Shown one piece after another: positions 1,688 to 29,569 of a stretch of 33,424 nt of DNA (positions within the stretch are counted from its first letter, which is position 1; every line of letters starts with the position of its first letter). This stretch comes from an uncultured Clostridia bacterium (GTDB lineage Bacteria > Bacillota > Clostridia > Oscillospirales > Acutalibacteraceae): the NCBI GenBank assembly GCA_947644325.1, contig CANRZD010000010.1:1-33424 (forward strand). Reading direction: 5' to 3'. The position numbers and the translations under genes were made by a program. Under the pieces are notes generated by a model. It had not been told where the DNA came from. It did not search any database and saw only the letters and a program-made list of their open reading frames with translations.

Positions 1688-3077
1688 CATGTCACTGAAA
1701 AAGAACGAAATGCCCTCCCAAGAGCCCCACATCCGCAACAAAAACTTCGATGAAGTGGCCCTGGGCTATACCGAGGAACAGGCGCTGGATGAAGCTAAGC
1801 GCTGCTTAAATTGCAAAAACAAGCCCTGCGTCTCCGGCTGCCCCGTACAGGTGCGCATCCCGGAATTCATCGAAAAAACCGCCGCCGGGGACTTCGAGGG
1901 GGCCTACCAGATCATCGCCCAGTCAAGCTCATTGCCCGCCGTATGCGGCCGCGTCTGCCCCCAAGAGAGCCAGTGCGAAAAGCTCTGCGTCCGGGGCATC
2001 AAGGGCGAGCCCGTGGCAATCGGCCGCTTAGAGCGCTTCGTCTCCGACTGGCACAACGAAAAAATGCAGGATTCTAAAGAGAAACCTGCATCAAACGGCC
2101 ACAAAGTAGCCGTGGTGGGCTCGGGCCCGGCGGGCCTCACCTGCGCCGGGGATCTGGCCCGGCTGGGGTACGAAGTCACCGTGTTCGAGGCCCTGCACAC
2201 CCCCGGCGGCGTGCTGGTCTACGGCATCCCGGAGTTTAGGCTGCCCAAAGCCATCGTGCAGAAGGAGATCGACGGCCTGAAGGCCATGGGCGTGAAGATC
2301 GAGACCAACATGGTCATCGGCCGGGTGCTTTCCATCGACGAGCTGCTGGGCGGGCAGGGCTTCGAAGCCGTGTTCATCGGCAGCGGCGCGGGGCTTCCCC
2401 GGTTCATGAACATCCCCGGCGAGAACCTCAAGGGCGTGTACTCTGCAAACGAATTTCTGACCCGGGTGAACCTGATGAAATCCTATCGTGAAAATAACGA
2501 TACTCCCATACAGCGAGCAAAAAAAGTTGCAGTAGTAGGCGGAGGTAACGTAGCTATGGACGCGGCCCGGTGCGCCAAAAGATTGGGCGCGGAGGAGGTC
2601 ACCGTAGTCTACAGGCGCTCAGAAAAAGAGCTGCCAGCCCGGGCCGAAGAGGTGGAGCACGCCAAAGAGGAGGGTATCATCTTTAAGCTGCTCAACAACC
2701 CCACGCGCATTTTAGGCGACGAAAACGGGAACGTGAAAGCCATGGAGTGCCTGGAAATGACCCTGGGCGAGCCCGACGCCTCCGGCCGCCGCCGCCCAGT
2801 GGAGAAGCCCGGCAGCGAGTTCACATTGGACGTAGACTGTGTGATTATGGCGATTGGCACCAGCCCAAACCCCCTGATAAAGTCCACCACAGAGGGCCTG
2901 GAAACCCAGCGCTGGGGCGGCATCATCGTGGAGGAGGAGACGGGCCTTACGAGCCGCGAGAATGTCTACGCCGGCGGCGACGCGGTCACCGGCGCGGCTA
3001 CGGTGATCCTCGCCATGGGCGCGGGGAAGACCGCCGCCAAGGCTATTCACGAGGCTCTATCACGAACCGCCGGATAG
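1680..3077 (+). CDS. nfnB: NADPH-dependent glutamate synthase-like protein (NfnB/GltA type)
   Basis: CLNCKNKPCVSGCPV and CGRVCPQESQCEKLCV Fe-S motifs, two GxGxxG sites (VVGSGPAGL, VVGGGNVAMDAAR). Start chosen at ATG 1680 (ORF track gives 1641). Confidence 0.9.
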   Translation: MPNMSLKKNEMPSQEPHIRNKNFDEVALGYTEEQALDEAKRCLNCKNKPCVSGCPVQVRIPEFIEKTAAGDFEGAYQIIAQSSSLPAVCGRVCPQESQCEKLCVRGIKGEPVAIGRLERFVSDWHNEKMQDSKEKPASNGHKVAVVGSGPAGLTCAGDLARLGYEVTVFEALHTPGGVLVYGIPEFRLPKAIVQKEIDGLKAMGVKIETNMVIGRVLSIDELLGGQGFEAVFIGSGAGLPRFMNIPGENLKGVYSANEFLTRVNLMKSYRENNDTPIQRAKKVAVVGGGNVAMDAARCAKRLGAEEVTVVYRRSEKELPARAEEVEHAKEEGIIFKLLNNPTRILGDENGNVKAMECLEMTLGEPDASGRRRPVEKPGSEFTLDVDCVIMAIGTSPNPLIKSTTEGLETQRWGGIIVEEETGLTSRENVYAGGDAVTGAATVILAMGAGKTAAKAIHEALSRTAG

Positions 3078-3882
3078 CCTCGGCCAGACCGTCCTTATCG
3101 TGGGGGGCGCGGGTCACGTAGCCCGCCGCCTCCTTTGCCTCCCGGGACCCATCCCCCATGGCCGCGGAGAACCCGGCGGCCTGCAGCATGGTCACGTCGT
3201 TGCCGTTGTCCCCCAGGGCCAGCACGTTCTCGCGCCCCAGCCCCAGCATATGGGCCACGGCCAGCACGGCGCTGCCCTTGTCGGCGTCCCCGGCGTTTAT
3301 CTCCAGGTTGTCCGGGATGGACGACGTGACCCGCAGCCCTCCCAGCTCCCTGAGCCTGCGCCAAATCTCGTCCCGGGCCTCCGGCGTGAGAAACGGCAGG
3401 TTGATCTTCTCGGGCTCCAGCCCCGTGTCCAACAGCGCCCCAAAGCTTTCCGCCAGCTGATAGCGCTTCCCGTCCACAAAATGCCACTTGCTTTGCGGGA
3501 AGCCGAAGTACCCCCGGGCCTTCTCCGGGTAGCCTTTTTGGGTGATGGCGCTGCCGTTTTCGTAATATTCTATGTAAAAATCGTACTCATCCAGTATCTC
3601 CTGCACCTGCCGAGCCTTCTCATTGGAGATGCACCTTTTATAGACCGCCTGGCCGCTCTGCAGGTCGTAGACGGCCGCGCCGTTGGCGGTCACCGCGTAG
3701 CGCACCCCGGGCAAGGCGATGACGGCCTCCGGCAGAAAATCCCGCATGCGGCCCGAGGCCGGAAGCAAATGTACGCCCCTCTCCCCCGCCCAGCGCAAGG
3801 CCTCCTCGTTGCCCGGCGTCAGGTGCTTGTGCTCTACGATGGCCGTGCCGTCCAGGTCAAAGGCGATCAGCTTGATGTCCAT
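3043..3882 (-). CDS. Cof-type HAD-IIB family hydrolase
   Basis: FDLDGTAI motif I, PASGR, LALGDNGNDVTML motif. Confidence 0.9.
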   Translation of the reverse strand: MDIKLIAFDLDGTAIVEHKHLTPGNEEALRWAGERGVHLLPASGRMRDFLPEAVIALPGVRYAVTANGAAVYDLQSGQAVYKRCISNEKARQVQEILDEYDFYIEYYENGSAITQKGYPEKARGYFGFPQSKWHFVDGKRYQLAESFGALLDTGLEPEKINLPFLTPEARDEIWRRLRELGGLRVTSSIPDNLEINAGDADKGSAVLAVAHMLGLGRENVLALGDNGNDVTMLQAAGFSAAMGDGSREAKEAAGYVTRAPHDKDGLAEAIRRFVIEPRE

Positions 3883-3918
3883 ATCCGCACTCTCCTCAGA
3901 TTATTTCTTCCCACCCCC

Positions 3919-3947
3919 TTGCAAAACCCCGGGGTATGGTGTATAAT
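3919..3947 (+). promoter_or_regulatory. Sigma-A-type promoter for a candidate antisense RNA
   Basis: TTGCAA (3919-3924), 17-bp spacer, TATAAT (3942-3947). No downstream + strand ORF recognised; reads toward the 3' end of the 31-aa minus-strand ORF. Confidence 0.7.
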
Positions 3948-3953
3948 ATTTAC

Positions 3954-4052
3954 AGTAAGGCGCTGCCGTGTGGCGGTTAGCCCGTCTGACTAATTTGGGT
4001 TTTTAATCCACACTAGCCGTTTGGGTGTTGGCCAAGCGGCTAGTACGCTTTT
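3954..4052 (+). ncRNA. Candidate type I antitoxin (antisense) RNA; ends approximate
   Basis: Downstream of the 3919-3947 promoter. Ends near a strong hairpin ctagccgtttgg-gtgttgg-ccaagcggctag (4013-4043) followed by tacgctttt; overlaps the 3' end of the 31-aa ORF. Confidence 0.5.
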
Positions 4053-4135
4053 GGGGATATGTAGGCCAGCCATAAGGCTGCAAGTGCCAAACACACCGCG
4101 AAACGCAGGACCTTCGCCCAGCGCCCGTTTCCCAT
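4040..4135 (-). CDS. 31-aa hydrophobic peptide, candidate type I toxin (absent from the ORF track)
   Basis: Manual translation MGNGRWAKVLRFAVCLALAALWLAYISPKAY, preceded by GGGAGGTGAAGCTT-ATG; consensus promoter upstream at 4249-4278. Confidence 0.65.
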   Translation of the reverse strand: MGNGRWAKVLRFAVCLALAALWLAYISPKAY

Positions 4136-4248
4136 AAGCTTCACCTCCCTTCGAATGTTCTCAGGGAAAATGAACCACCCCCTTTCGTAGAGGGGATGGG
4201 CTAACCGCCTTTTACGCGACAGCGCCGCCCCCTTTTGGGGGCCTTTTT

Positions 4249-4278
4249 ATTATATCGCATGCTGCCGCTTTTTGTCAA
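4249..4278 (-). promoter_or_regulatory. Sigma-A-type promoter for the 31-aa ORF
   Basis: Minus strand TTGACA (4278-4273), 18-bp spacer, TATAAT (4254-4249). Confidence 0.75.
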
Positions 4279-4285
4279 CAAAGAG

Positions 4286-4324
4286 AAAAACAGCCCTCCC
4301 CCTCCCCGGGGCAAGGCTGTTTTT
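4286..4324 (-). terminator. Terminator after the DUF1540 gene (symmetrical, possibly bidirectional)
   Basis: aaaaacagcc ... ggctgttttt inverted repeat just after the DUF1540 stop on the minus strand. Confidence 0.75.
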
Positions 4325-4330
4325 CCCGTT

Positions 4331-4657
4331 TTACTTGCAGGTAAAGGTGCAGCACTCTGTGCCGCTCTTAGAGCACACGTCGTCGCAGCAGCAGCCCACG
4401 CACACCCGCTCGGCATCGCACTTGCAGTCCGAGTTATAGGCGCAGTTCTGGGCGTAGCAGGTGATGGAGGAATCCACGCTGGCGCTGCCCCCCACAGAGG
4501 CCGTGCCCGAGGACCTGCCCCGCTCCCGGTAAGAACTGCAGCAGGTCTGGTCGCACACCTTGGCCCCGGGGCCGTCCACCTGGATGCCGGGCAGGCTGCA
4601 GAGGCCGCCGTCGTAGTGCTGGCAGGAAGATACCTGACATTCCAATCTGTTTTTCAT
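4331..4657 (-). CDS. DUF1540 domain-containing cysteine-rich protein
   Basis: MKNRLECQVSSCQHYDGGLCSLPGIQV...CDQTCCSSY plus a second Cys-rich repeat (ITCYAQNCAYNSDCKCDAERVCVG); AGGTG RBS before ATG 4657. Confidence 0.8.
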   Translation of the reverse strand: MKNRLECQVSSCQHYDGGLCSLPGIQVDGPGAKVCDQTCCSSYRERGRSSGTASVGGSASVDSSITCYAQNCAYNSDCKCDAERVCVGCCCDDVCSKSGTECCTFTCK

Positions 4658-4730
4658 AGGGCACCTCATTTTCACAAGATTCATGGGGCTAATTGAAAGC
4701 CTCACACGCCCTATTCTGCCCTTTAGCCGC

Positions 4731-5987
4731 TTATTGATACAAAGGATATTTCTGGCAGATGCCGTTTACCATAGCCCGGAGCTTTTCTTTATTGTTTTCA
4801 AAATCATCTTCCATCGAGAGGGCGATGCAGGCGGCAATCTCGTCCATGTCGGCCTCCTTCAGGCCCCGGGTGGTGACGGCCGGGGTGCCCAGCCGCACGC
4901 CGCTGGTGACAAAGGGGCTGCGCTTCTCCCCGGGCACGGTGTTCTTGTTGGCGGTGATGTACACCTCGTCCAGCCGCCGCTCCAGCTCCTTGCCGGTGAG
5001 CTCGCTGTCGGAAAGGTCAACGAGCATCAGGTGGTTGTCCGTGCCGCCGCTCACAAGCTTCACGCCCCGCTTTAAGAGCCCGTCGGCCAGAGCACTGGCG
5101 TTCTTCACCACCTGCTGGCCGTATTCTTTGAAGGAAGGCTGCAGCGCCTCCCCCAGGCACACGGCCTTGGCGGCGATGATGTGCATCAAAGGCCCGCCCT
5201 GGGTGCCCGGGAAGATGGCCTTGTCGATGGCCTTGGCGTACTGCTCTTTGCAGAGGATGAGCCCGCCCCGGGGCCCTCTCAGGGTCTTGTGGGTGGTGGT
5301 GGTGACTACGTCGGCGTAGGGCACCGGGTTCTGGTGCGCCCCGGCGGCCACGAGGCCCGCTATGTGCGCCATGTCCACCATGAGCAGCGCCCCGCAGGCG
5401 TCGCAGATCTCCCGGAATTTAGCAAAGTCAATGGCCCTGGGGTACGCGCTGGCCCCGGCCACGATGAGCTTGGGGCTAACTTCCAAAGCCTGCGCCATGA
5501 GCTTTTCATAGTCGATGCGCCCGGTCTCCGGGTCCACCCCGTAGGGCACGAAGTTATAAAGGGCCCCGGACATGTTTACAGGCGACCCGTGGGTCAGGTG
5601 CCCGCCTTCTGCCAGGTTCATGCCCAGCACCGTGTCGCCGGGCTGCAGCAGGGCAAAGTACACTGCCAGGTTCGCCTGGGCCCCGGAGTGGGGCTGCACG
5701 TTGGCGTGCTCGGCCCCAAAGAGCTTGCAGGCCCTATCCCTTGCGATGTTCTCGGCGATATCCACGCACTGGCACCCGCCGTAGTAGCGCTTTGCGGGGT
5801 ACCCTTCCGCGTACTTGTTCGTCAGTACCGAGCCCATGGCCGCCATCACCGCCGGGGACACGATGTTTTCCGAGGCGATGAGCTCCAGGTTCCGCCGCTG
5901 GCGGGAAAGCTCCTCCTTCATGGCCTCCCCTACCTCCGGGTCCGCCTGAGAGACAAAGCCGATACTGTCCATCAGATTTTCAAACAT
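4731..5987 (-). CDS. glyA: Serine hydroxymethyltransferase
   Basis: Full-length Gly[44 protein letters not shown]. Start chosen at ATG 5987 with AAAGGAG upstream. Confidence 0.97.
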
Positions 5988-29445: not shown

Positions 29446-29451
29446 TACCGC

Positions 29452-29549
29452 CTCATCTTTCGGTTTACACCGCAGGAATTGGCACCTTGCAGCTTGCGCC
29501 ACAGGTTGCCGGGCATCACAGGGCCTGTCCCTCCGCCTCTCTTGATAAG
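29452..29549 (-). promoter_or_regulatory. SAM-I riboswitch (S-box leader) upstream of metK
   Basis: Minus strand CTTATCAAGAGAGGCGGAGGGACAGGCCCTGTGATGCCCGGCAACCTG...AAGGTGCCAATTCCTGC...GAAAGATGAG, canonical S-box conserved elements. Confidence 0.96.
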
Positions 29550-29569
29550 GATCTATTCAGCTTTTCTTT

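Follow-up and report, generated by a model that had tools for sequence, protein, structure and literature searches.

A multi-copy family of probable type I-like toxin-antitoxin modules in Oscillospirales and their phages

Background

The hok mRNA is inactive through folding of its 5' end onto its 3' end. The hallmarks described for type I toxin mRNAs are (i) a long-distance helix between the 5' and 3' ends, (ii) an upstream anti-Shine-Dalgarno (anti-SD) sequence, (iii) a primary transcript that cannot be translated, and (iv) occurrence in multi-copy families (PMC6733600). In the Bacillus subtilis systems, the antisense RNA overlaps the 3' end of the toxin mRNA (PMC6562991). Type I systems easily escape detection, both the peptide and the RNA being smaller than gene finders can handle. 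In the literature searched, we found none described for Oscillospirales, a major order of gut bacteria; older type I surveys may mention one.

Here, we analyze a locus in a 33,424-nucleotide stretch of DNA (the window) from an uncultured member of the Acutalibacteraceae. Judged from its sequence and its relatives, the locus very likely represents a new type I-like toxin-antitoxin family that occurs in multiple copies in Oscillospirales and their phages. A type I pair had been proposed by an earlier sequence-only reading of the window, and this type I-like organization is now supported by a conserved coding peptide, two convergent promoters, strand-specific covarying folds, and multi-copy, tandem, and prophage occurrence. 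The predicted features of the locus are as follows.

4249..4278, minus strand: promoter of the putative toxin mRNA, TTGACA-18-TATAAT, matching the consensus at 12/12 positions; predicted start at ~4242; present in nearly all copies
4214..4229, minus strand: long-range helix H1, 5' arm, pairing with 3956-3971 (fold and pair counts)
4198..4209, minus strand: long-range helix H2, 5' arm, GGCGGTTAGCCC, pairing with 3972-3983 (covariation and wobble in 45 copies)
4177..4197, minus strand: hairpin H3, CCCC...GGGGGT, a masked SD-like G-run (90% of cells paired)
4144..4168, minus strand: hairpin H4, in which the anti-SD UUCCCU pairs with AGGGAGG and masks the SD (78% of cells paired)
4040..4135, minus strand: peptide ORF, MGNGRWAKVLRFAVCLALAALWLAYISPKAY, 31 aa, hydrophobic, stop codon TAG (profile E values of 1e-14 to 1e-16; dN/dS of 0.31)
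3972..3983, minus strand: long-range helix H2, 3' arm (pair counts and wobble)
3956..3971, minus strand: long-range helix H1, 3' arm (pair counts)
3919..3947, plus strand: candidate antisense promoter, TTGCAA-17-TATAAT; predicted start at ~3954; a counterpart in nearly all copies
4013..4043, plus strand: stop-codon hairpin H5, assigned to the antisense RNA and one of its two candidate 3' ends (stop-codon covariation and wobble)
4047..4054, plus strand: GCTTTTGG, corresponding to the peptide codons CCA AAA GC, a candidate U-tract behind H5 (frozen synonymous sites)
4227..4250, plus strand: hairpin H0, a predicted intrinsic terminator GCCCCC-TTTT-GGGGGC with the tail CTTTTTAT (terminator scan)

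Comparison with described type I systems

The design of the putative toxin mRNA, with its 5'-3' helix and SD hairpin, appears closer to aapA/IsoA and hok than to txpA/bsrG. With aapA/IsoA of Helicobacter and relatives (PMC6733600), the locus shares multiple copies, a small peptide, and, by prediction, a self-inhibited mRNA and a cis antisense RNA, and the 5'-3' helix and the anti-SD just upstream of the SD are matched by H1/H2 and H4. It differs from aapA/IsoA in several respects: (i) the peptide is unrelated and has no family match, (ii) the host belongs to Oscillospirales and not to the epsilonproteobacteria, (iii) the antisense promoter is situated beyond the 3' end and points inward, with the helix arms just inside both promoters, and (iv) the stop codon forms part of an antisense hairpin that covaries. 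A 5'-3' folded, inactive mRNA (here predicted) and repeated and mobile occurrence are common to the locus and hok/Sok, whereas no peptide similarity and no overlapping mok-like frame were seen, and the host here is Gram-positive.

The sequence-only reading had likened the locus to txpA/ratA and bsrG/SR4; the layout fits, whereas the peptide, having no Pfam match, stands outside those families. Features in common with txpA/RatA, bsrG/SR4, and bsrE/SR5 of B. subtilis (PMC6562991) are a convergent 3'-overlapping antisense RNA (here predicted), prophage locations, a toxin mRNA of ~250-300 nt, and a membrane peptide of 30-59 aa. Unlike these systems, the locus has a strong 5'-3' inverted repeat and a peptide without detectable homology to theirs, and its second candidate terminator would make the antisense RNA full-length. 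The Fst/RNAII system (par; PMC8167048) likewise has convergent promoters, related repeats at the 5' ends of both RNAs, and a single-span peptide of ~30 aa; however, the repeats of par are direct (DRa/DRb), whereas the sequence common to both RNAs here is inverted and closes each RNA on itself. The peptide here lacks a charged tail and a Pfam match, and no bidirectional terminator is apparent at the locus.

The best reading of these comparisons is that the family would combine a self-inhibited mRNA of the AapA/hok kind with a convergent antisense RNA of the txpA/bsrG kind. We found no description elsewhere of the peptide family or of inverted-repeat ends combined with inward promoters and a stop codon in an antisense hairpin.

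Peptide family

The 31-aa frame is present as the sequence-only reading claimed, with GGGAGGTG as its SD. Conservation of frame and SD at homologous loci, which that reading had set as a check, was found; in 45 non-redundant copies, the peptide is conserved (dN/dS of ~0.3). Of 240 pairwise comparisons, 99% give a dN/dS below 1 (median 0.31), all indels among the copies preserve the frame, and the SD and start codon are kept. From this selection, we infer that the peptide is translated.

Members of the family are 26-32 aa long and follow the consensus MG, a short linker, KxLRFAVC, ~9 hydrophobic residues, and YIAPKA[CY]. Each of the 33 peptides compared has one strongly hydrophobic segment, an N-terminal positive charge, and a single C-terminal Lys or Arg, the C-terminal net charge being +1 in 33/33; the maximal 15-residue hydropathy averages 3.0. 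A small hydrophobic peptide under coding selection, one of the marks of a type I system, is thus found here by dN/dS, indels, and hydropathy. The family peptide is very probably a self-toxin, although its resemblance to no known toxin counts against the type I explanation. The earlier reading could name no family for it. Searches of Pfam, NCBIfam, and PDB were indeed negative and PHROGs returned only chance-level matches; by these comparisons, the family belongs to no known family in the libraries searched.

Convergent promoters

Both proposed promoters were recovered, the convergent one with a 10/12 match to the consensus, as was the long leader of ~107 nt, counted from the predicted start near 4242. 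They are the only promoter-like sites within positions 3000-5000 (0.4 expected in shuffles), and a promoter score of 11 is attained by ~0.1% of shuffled sequences. Across 36-40 copies, the toxin promoter usually matches at 11-12 of 12 positions, and the antisense promoter reads TTGACA-16/17-TATAAT, mostly with a 12/12 match, and lies 82-107 nt beyond the stop codon, a nearly constant distance. The information content of the hexamers reaches 2 bits per base (~2 in the antisense -10 box), against 0.4-0.5 bits in the spacers. Conserved hexamers with divergent spacers suggest that the promoter sites are held by selection and do not reflect recent copying.

The antisense -35 box of the window copy, TTGCAA, is degenerate compared with the family norm TTGACA, and the same box occurs in one other copy (L031). 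That the antisense promoter of the window is weaker than the family norm counts against the type I explanation.

In the third copy of this genome, on contig C8 (L003, G000:C8:29890-30085), the peptide is intact, the antisense promoter perfect, and the H0 terminator strong; a toxin promoter was not recognizable there. This copy is possibly silenced or a trans-acting source of antisense RNA. With no toxin promoter recognizable in it, some copies of the family may be decaying or silenced, a further point against the type I explanation.

Predicted folding of the putative toxin mRNA

The inverted repeats 4229-4198 and 3956-3983, an element absent from the sequence-only reading, let the ends of the transcript pair. 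Folding energies of the ~290-nt unit are far below those of shuffled sequences on either strand (z of -6.7 and -8.0) because its two ends are inverted repeats. Over 36 copies, the named five-helix structure is 87.8% paired, compared with 35-52% for slid versions; 22 pairs have changes on both sides, and the covariation score was reached by 0/500 shuffles.

A G-U pair on one strand corresponds to an A-C mismatch on the other, so the direction of wobble identifies the RNA strand. In the 45 copies, the G-U cells of H2 number 46 on the toxin strand and 9 on the antisense strand, whereas in H5 the direction is reversed, with 45 G-U cells on the antisense strand and 4 on the toxin strand; a single pair holds 28 of the 45. 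A lean to the toxin strand is also seen in H1 (79/38), H3 (24/4), and H4 (36/15). All these figures are counts of cells and not of independent events. Relatedness of the copies can hardly account for opposite signs in the same locus, and by this test the locus would be the source of two RNA molecules, each with its own selected fold. The ~45 natural variants separate the mRNA structure from the antisense structure by wobble direction, and make it testable in these bacteria how coevolution proceeds, around a shared stop codon, between a toxin mRNA that closes on itself and its antisense RNA.

A full-length mRNA that is non-translatable through a masked SD and a long-range helix, as in type I systems, is predicted at the sequence level from the fold and its covariation. 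A further helix between the start codon and the last codons (AUGGG with CCCCA) pairs well, and its wobble (39 versus 43) favors neither strand.

The 5' leader varies among copies. Many copies in alignments A3 and A6 have both G-run hairpins, H3 and H4, and the rest only one, an apparent duplication or loss of a masked SD; in some copies without H4, the G-run of H3 serves as the SD. In L006, L010, and L054, an extra hairpin, GAGTTGGAGATCCCAACTC, is found in the 5' arm between H1 and H2, and the long-range helix is unbroken.

Candidate antisense RNA

The hairpin at 4013-4043 had been proposed to overlap the stop codon and to end the antisense RNA. It does contain the stop codon (partner CTA); however, as a terminator it fails the criterion of the terminator scan. 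The stop codon and its partner in the hairpin covary, as TAG/CTA in 29 copies, TGA/TCA in 13, and TAA/TTA in 1. A canonical plus-strand terminator (GCCCCCTTTTGGGGGCCTTTTTATTA) is found at H0, directly behind the toxin promoter, with its U-tract overlapping the toxin -10 box. In the predicted toxin mRNA, H0 would be the 5'-terminal hairpin. It is present in 29/36 copies beside a stretch that is A-rich on the toxin strand and U-rich on the antisense strand, and hand counts of its wobble gave similar numbers for the two strands, with no strand preference. With H5 and H0 as the two candidate 3' ends, the antisense RNA would be ~100 nt or ~295 nt long, an ambiguity that counts against the type I explanation.

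Synonymous sites are frozen where the end of the peptide and the antisense element overlap. The Lys codon is AAA in 44/44 copies (26% in window genes) and the Pro codon is CCA in 37/39 (4.6% in window genes); near the start, 39 of the 43 glycine codons at Gly2 are GGA (4.5% in window genes). On the antisense strand, the frozen last codons give GCUUUUGG immediately after H5, in support of H5 as the antisense end. The same bases may, however, also mask the start codon in the toxin mRNA.

The plus-strand transcript was also considered as a known structured RNA and rejected, since Rfam gave nothing above chance at the gathering threshold or at E values up to 10; with the Rfam BsrG model, the locus reaches 11 bits, far from the gathering score of 55.

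Distribution and genomic context

The genome of the window has three copies, the other two being on contigs C66 (79% identity) and C8. Within the genus (the Acutalibacter/Neglectibacter group), DNA search gave matches in 15/29 genomes, and the peptide profile matched in 17/29, with 47 among the matches listed and up to 9 in one genome, a few of the weakest profile matches falling within long ORFs. Alignments A2 and A5 were used for the collection scan, A1 being too diverse. The architecture of the window locus is shared by ~40 distinct intact copies; named carriers are Acutalibacter and Neglectibacter isolates and gut metagenome-assembled genomes. The same architecture also recurs in several other Oscillospirales families. 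Among 300 family genomes, few outside the genus are carriers. Outside Oscillospirales, 391 class and 300 phylum genomes yielded nothing credible: the matches considered as possible relatives all lie inside long ORFs and were judged spurious.

The window copy is flanked by HAD hydrolase and DUF1540 genes. Chromosomal copies elsewhere adjoin unrelated genes, and no conserved neighbor gene was seen; positions shared by several species are beside gapA or a nucleotidyltransferase gene and beside a tRNA-synthetase-like gene. One locus beside gapA (L010, G009:C32:224251-224998) has three tandem copies, with peptides of the types MGKVWKY.. and MGKERWIK.. and a promoter pair for each.

Proposed mechanism and alternative explanations

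The module is most likely a type I toxin-antitoxin system. From the arrangement described above, we infer transcription, duplex formation, RNase action, and toxicity in the following scheme. The toxin mRNA would start near 4242 and encode a small membrane peptide; H1 and H2 would zip the ends of the full-length mRNA, and H3 and H4 would mask the ribosome site, keeping translation off until slow 3' trimming or a disturbed fold opens the mRNA. The promoter at 3919-3947 would produce an antisense RNA that reaches at least across the 3' arm, the stop hairpin, and the last codons and may extend over the entire mRNA; its pairing with the mRNA would lead to destruction of the mRNA, presumably by RNase III. 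Should the antisense supply fail, the peptide would be made and insert in the membrane.

Very small single-span peptides can be regulators, as is generally known, and the peptide could instead be a non-toxic small membrane protein, a membrane-complex regulator or a product with a phage moron function, under tight control by a cis antisense RNA. The extreme conservation of the C-terminal PKAC/Y could then mean a specific partner. However, addiction or toxin modules typically show what is seen here, namely many matches in one genome (as many as nine to the profile), arrangement in tandem, presence in prophages, and neighbors that are not conserved, and silencing at both the mRNA and the SD is among the type I hallmarks (PMC6733600). 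We consider such a non-toxic role improbable.

A MITE-like mobile hairpin element, with H1/H2 as terminal inverted repeats and the ORF as a passenger, would account for the multiple intergenic copies with inverted repeats in chromosomes and prophages. Such an element is very hard to reconcile with (i) promoters that lie outside the repeats and are conserved in their hexamers only, not in the spacers, (ii) coding constraint on the ORF, (iii) strand-asymmetric wobble, unexpected for repeats acting at the DNA level, and (iv) several copies at the same neighbor genes across species, as in vertical inheritance. Least credible is a leader peptide or attenuator of the downstream gene, with which the module is co-oriented in the window and in phage loci, since the downstream genes vary between copies (HAD hydrolase, baseplate J, nucleotidyltransferase, and others) and the convergent promoter and 3' helix close the unit.

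Copies in phage genomes

Prophage copies were found in two viral-contig scans; known phage and plasmid records gave no tblastn match. In phages, the module sits between gp25 and baseplate J genes, ahead of an amidase region of the lysis type, or amid genes for tail hub, wedge, neck, and Dit proteins. Those in phage tail, baseplate, and lysis regions include L103 and L104 (Neglectibacter sp. X58) and L124-L127 (IMG/VR). At all phage loci inspected, by eye and without statistics, the peptide gene is co-oriented with the structural genes.

Returning to the type I reading, a tentative and not very likely extension of it is a phage-borne toxin moron with the direction of transcription as its switch. 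After induction or superinfection, late transcription of tail, baseplate, and lysis genes might cross the inward-facing antisense promoter, raising the peptide RNA and starving the antisense RNA, so that the toxin would be freed at lysis or upon attack by another phage. The natural variants also make it testable why the module recurs in phage tail operons.

Elsewhere in the window, a SAM riboswitch (RF00162, 84.9 bits) is located at 29450-29551 on the minus strand.
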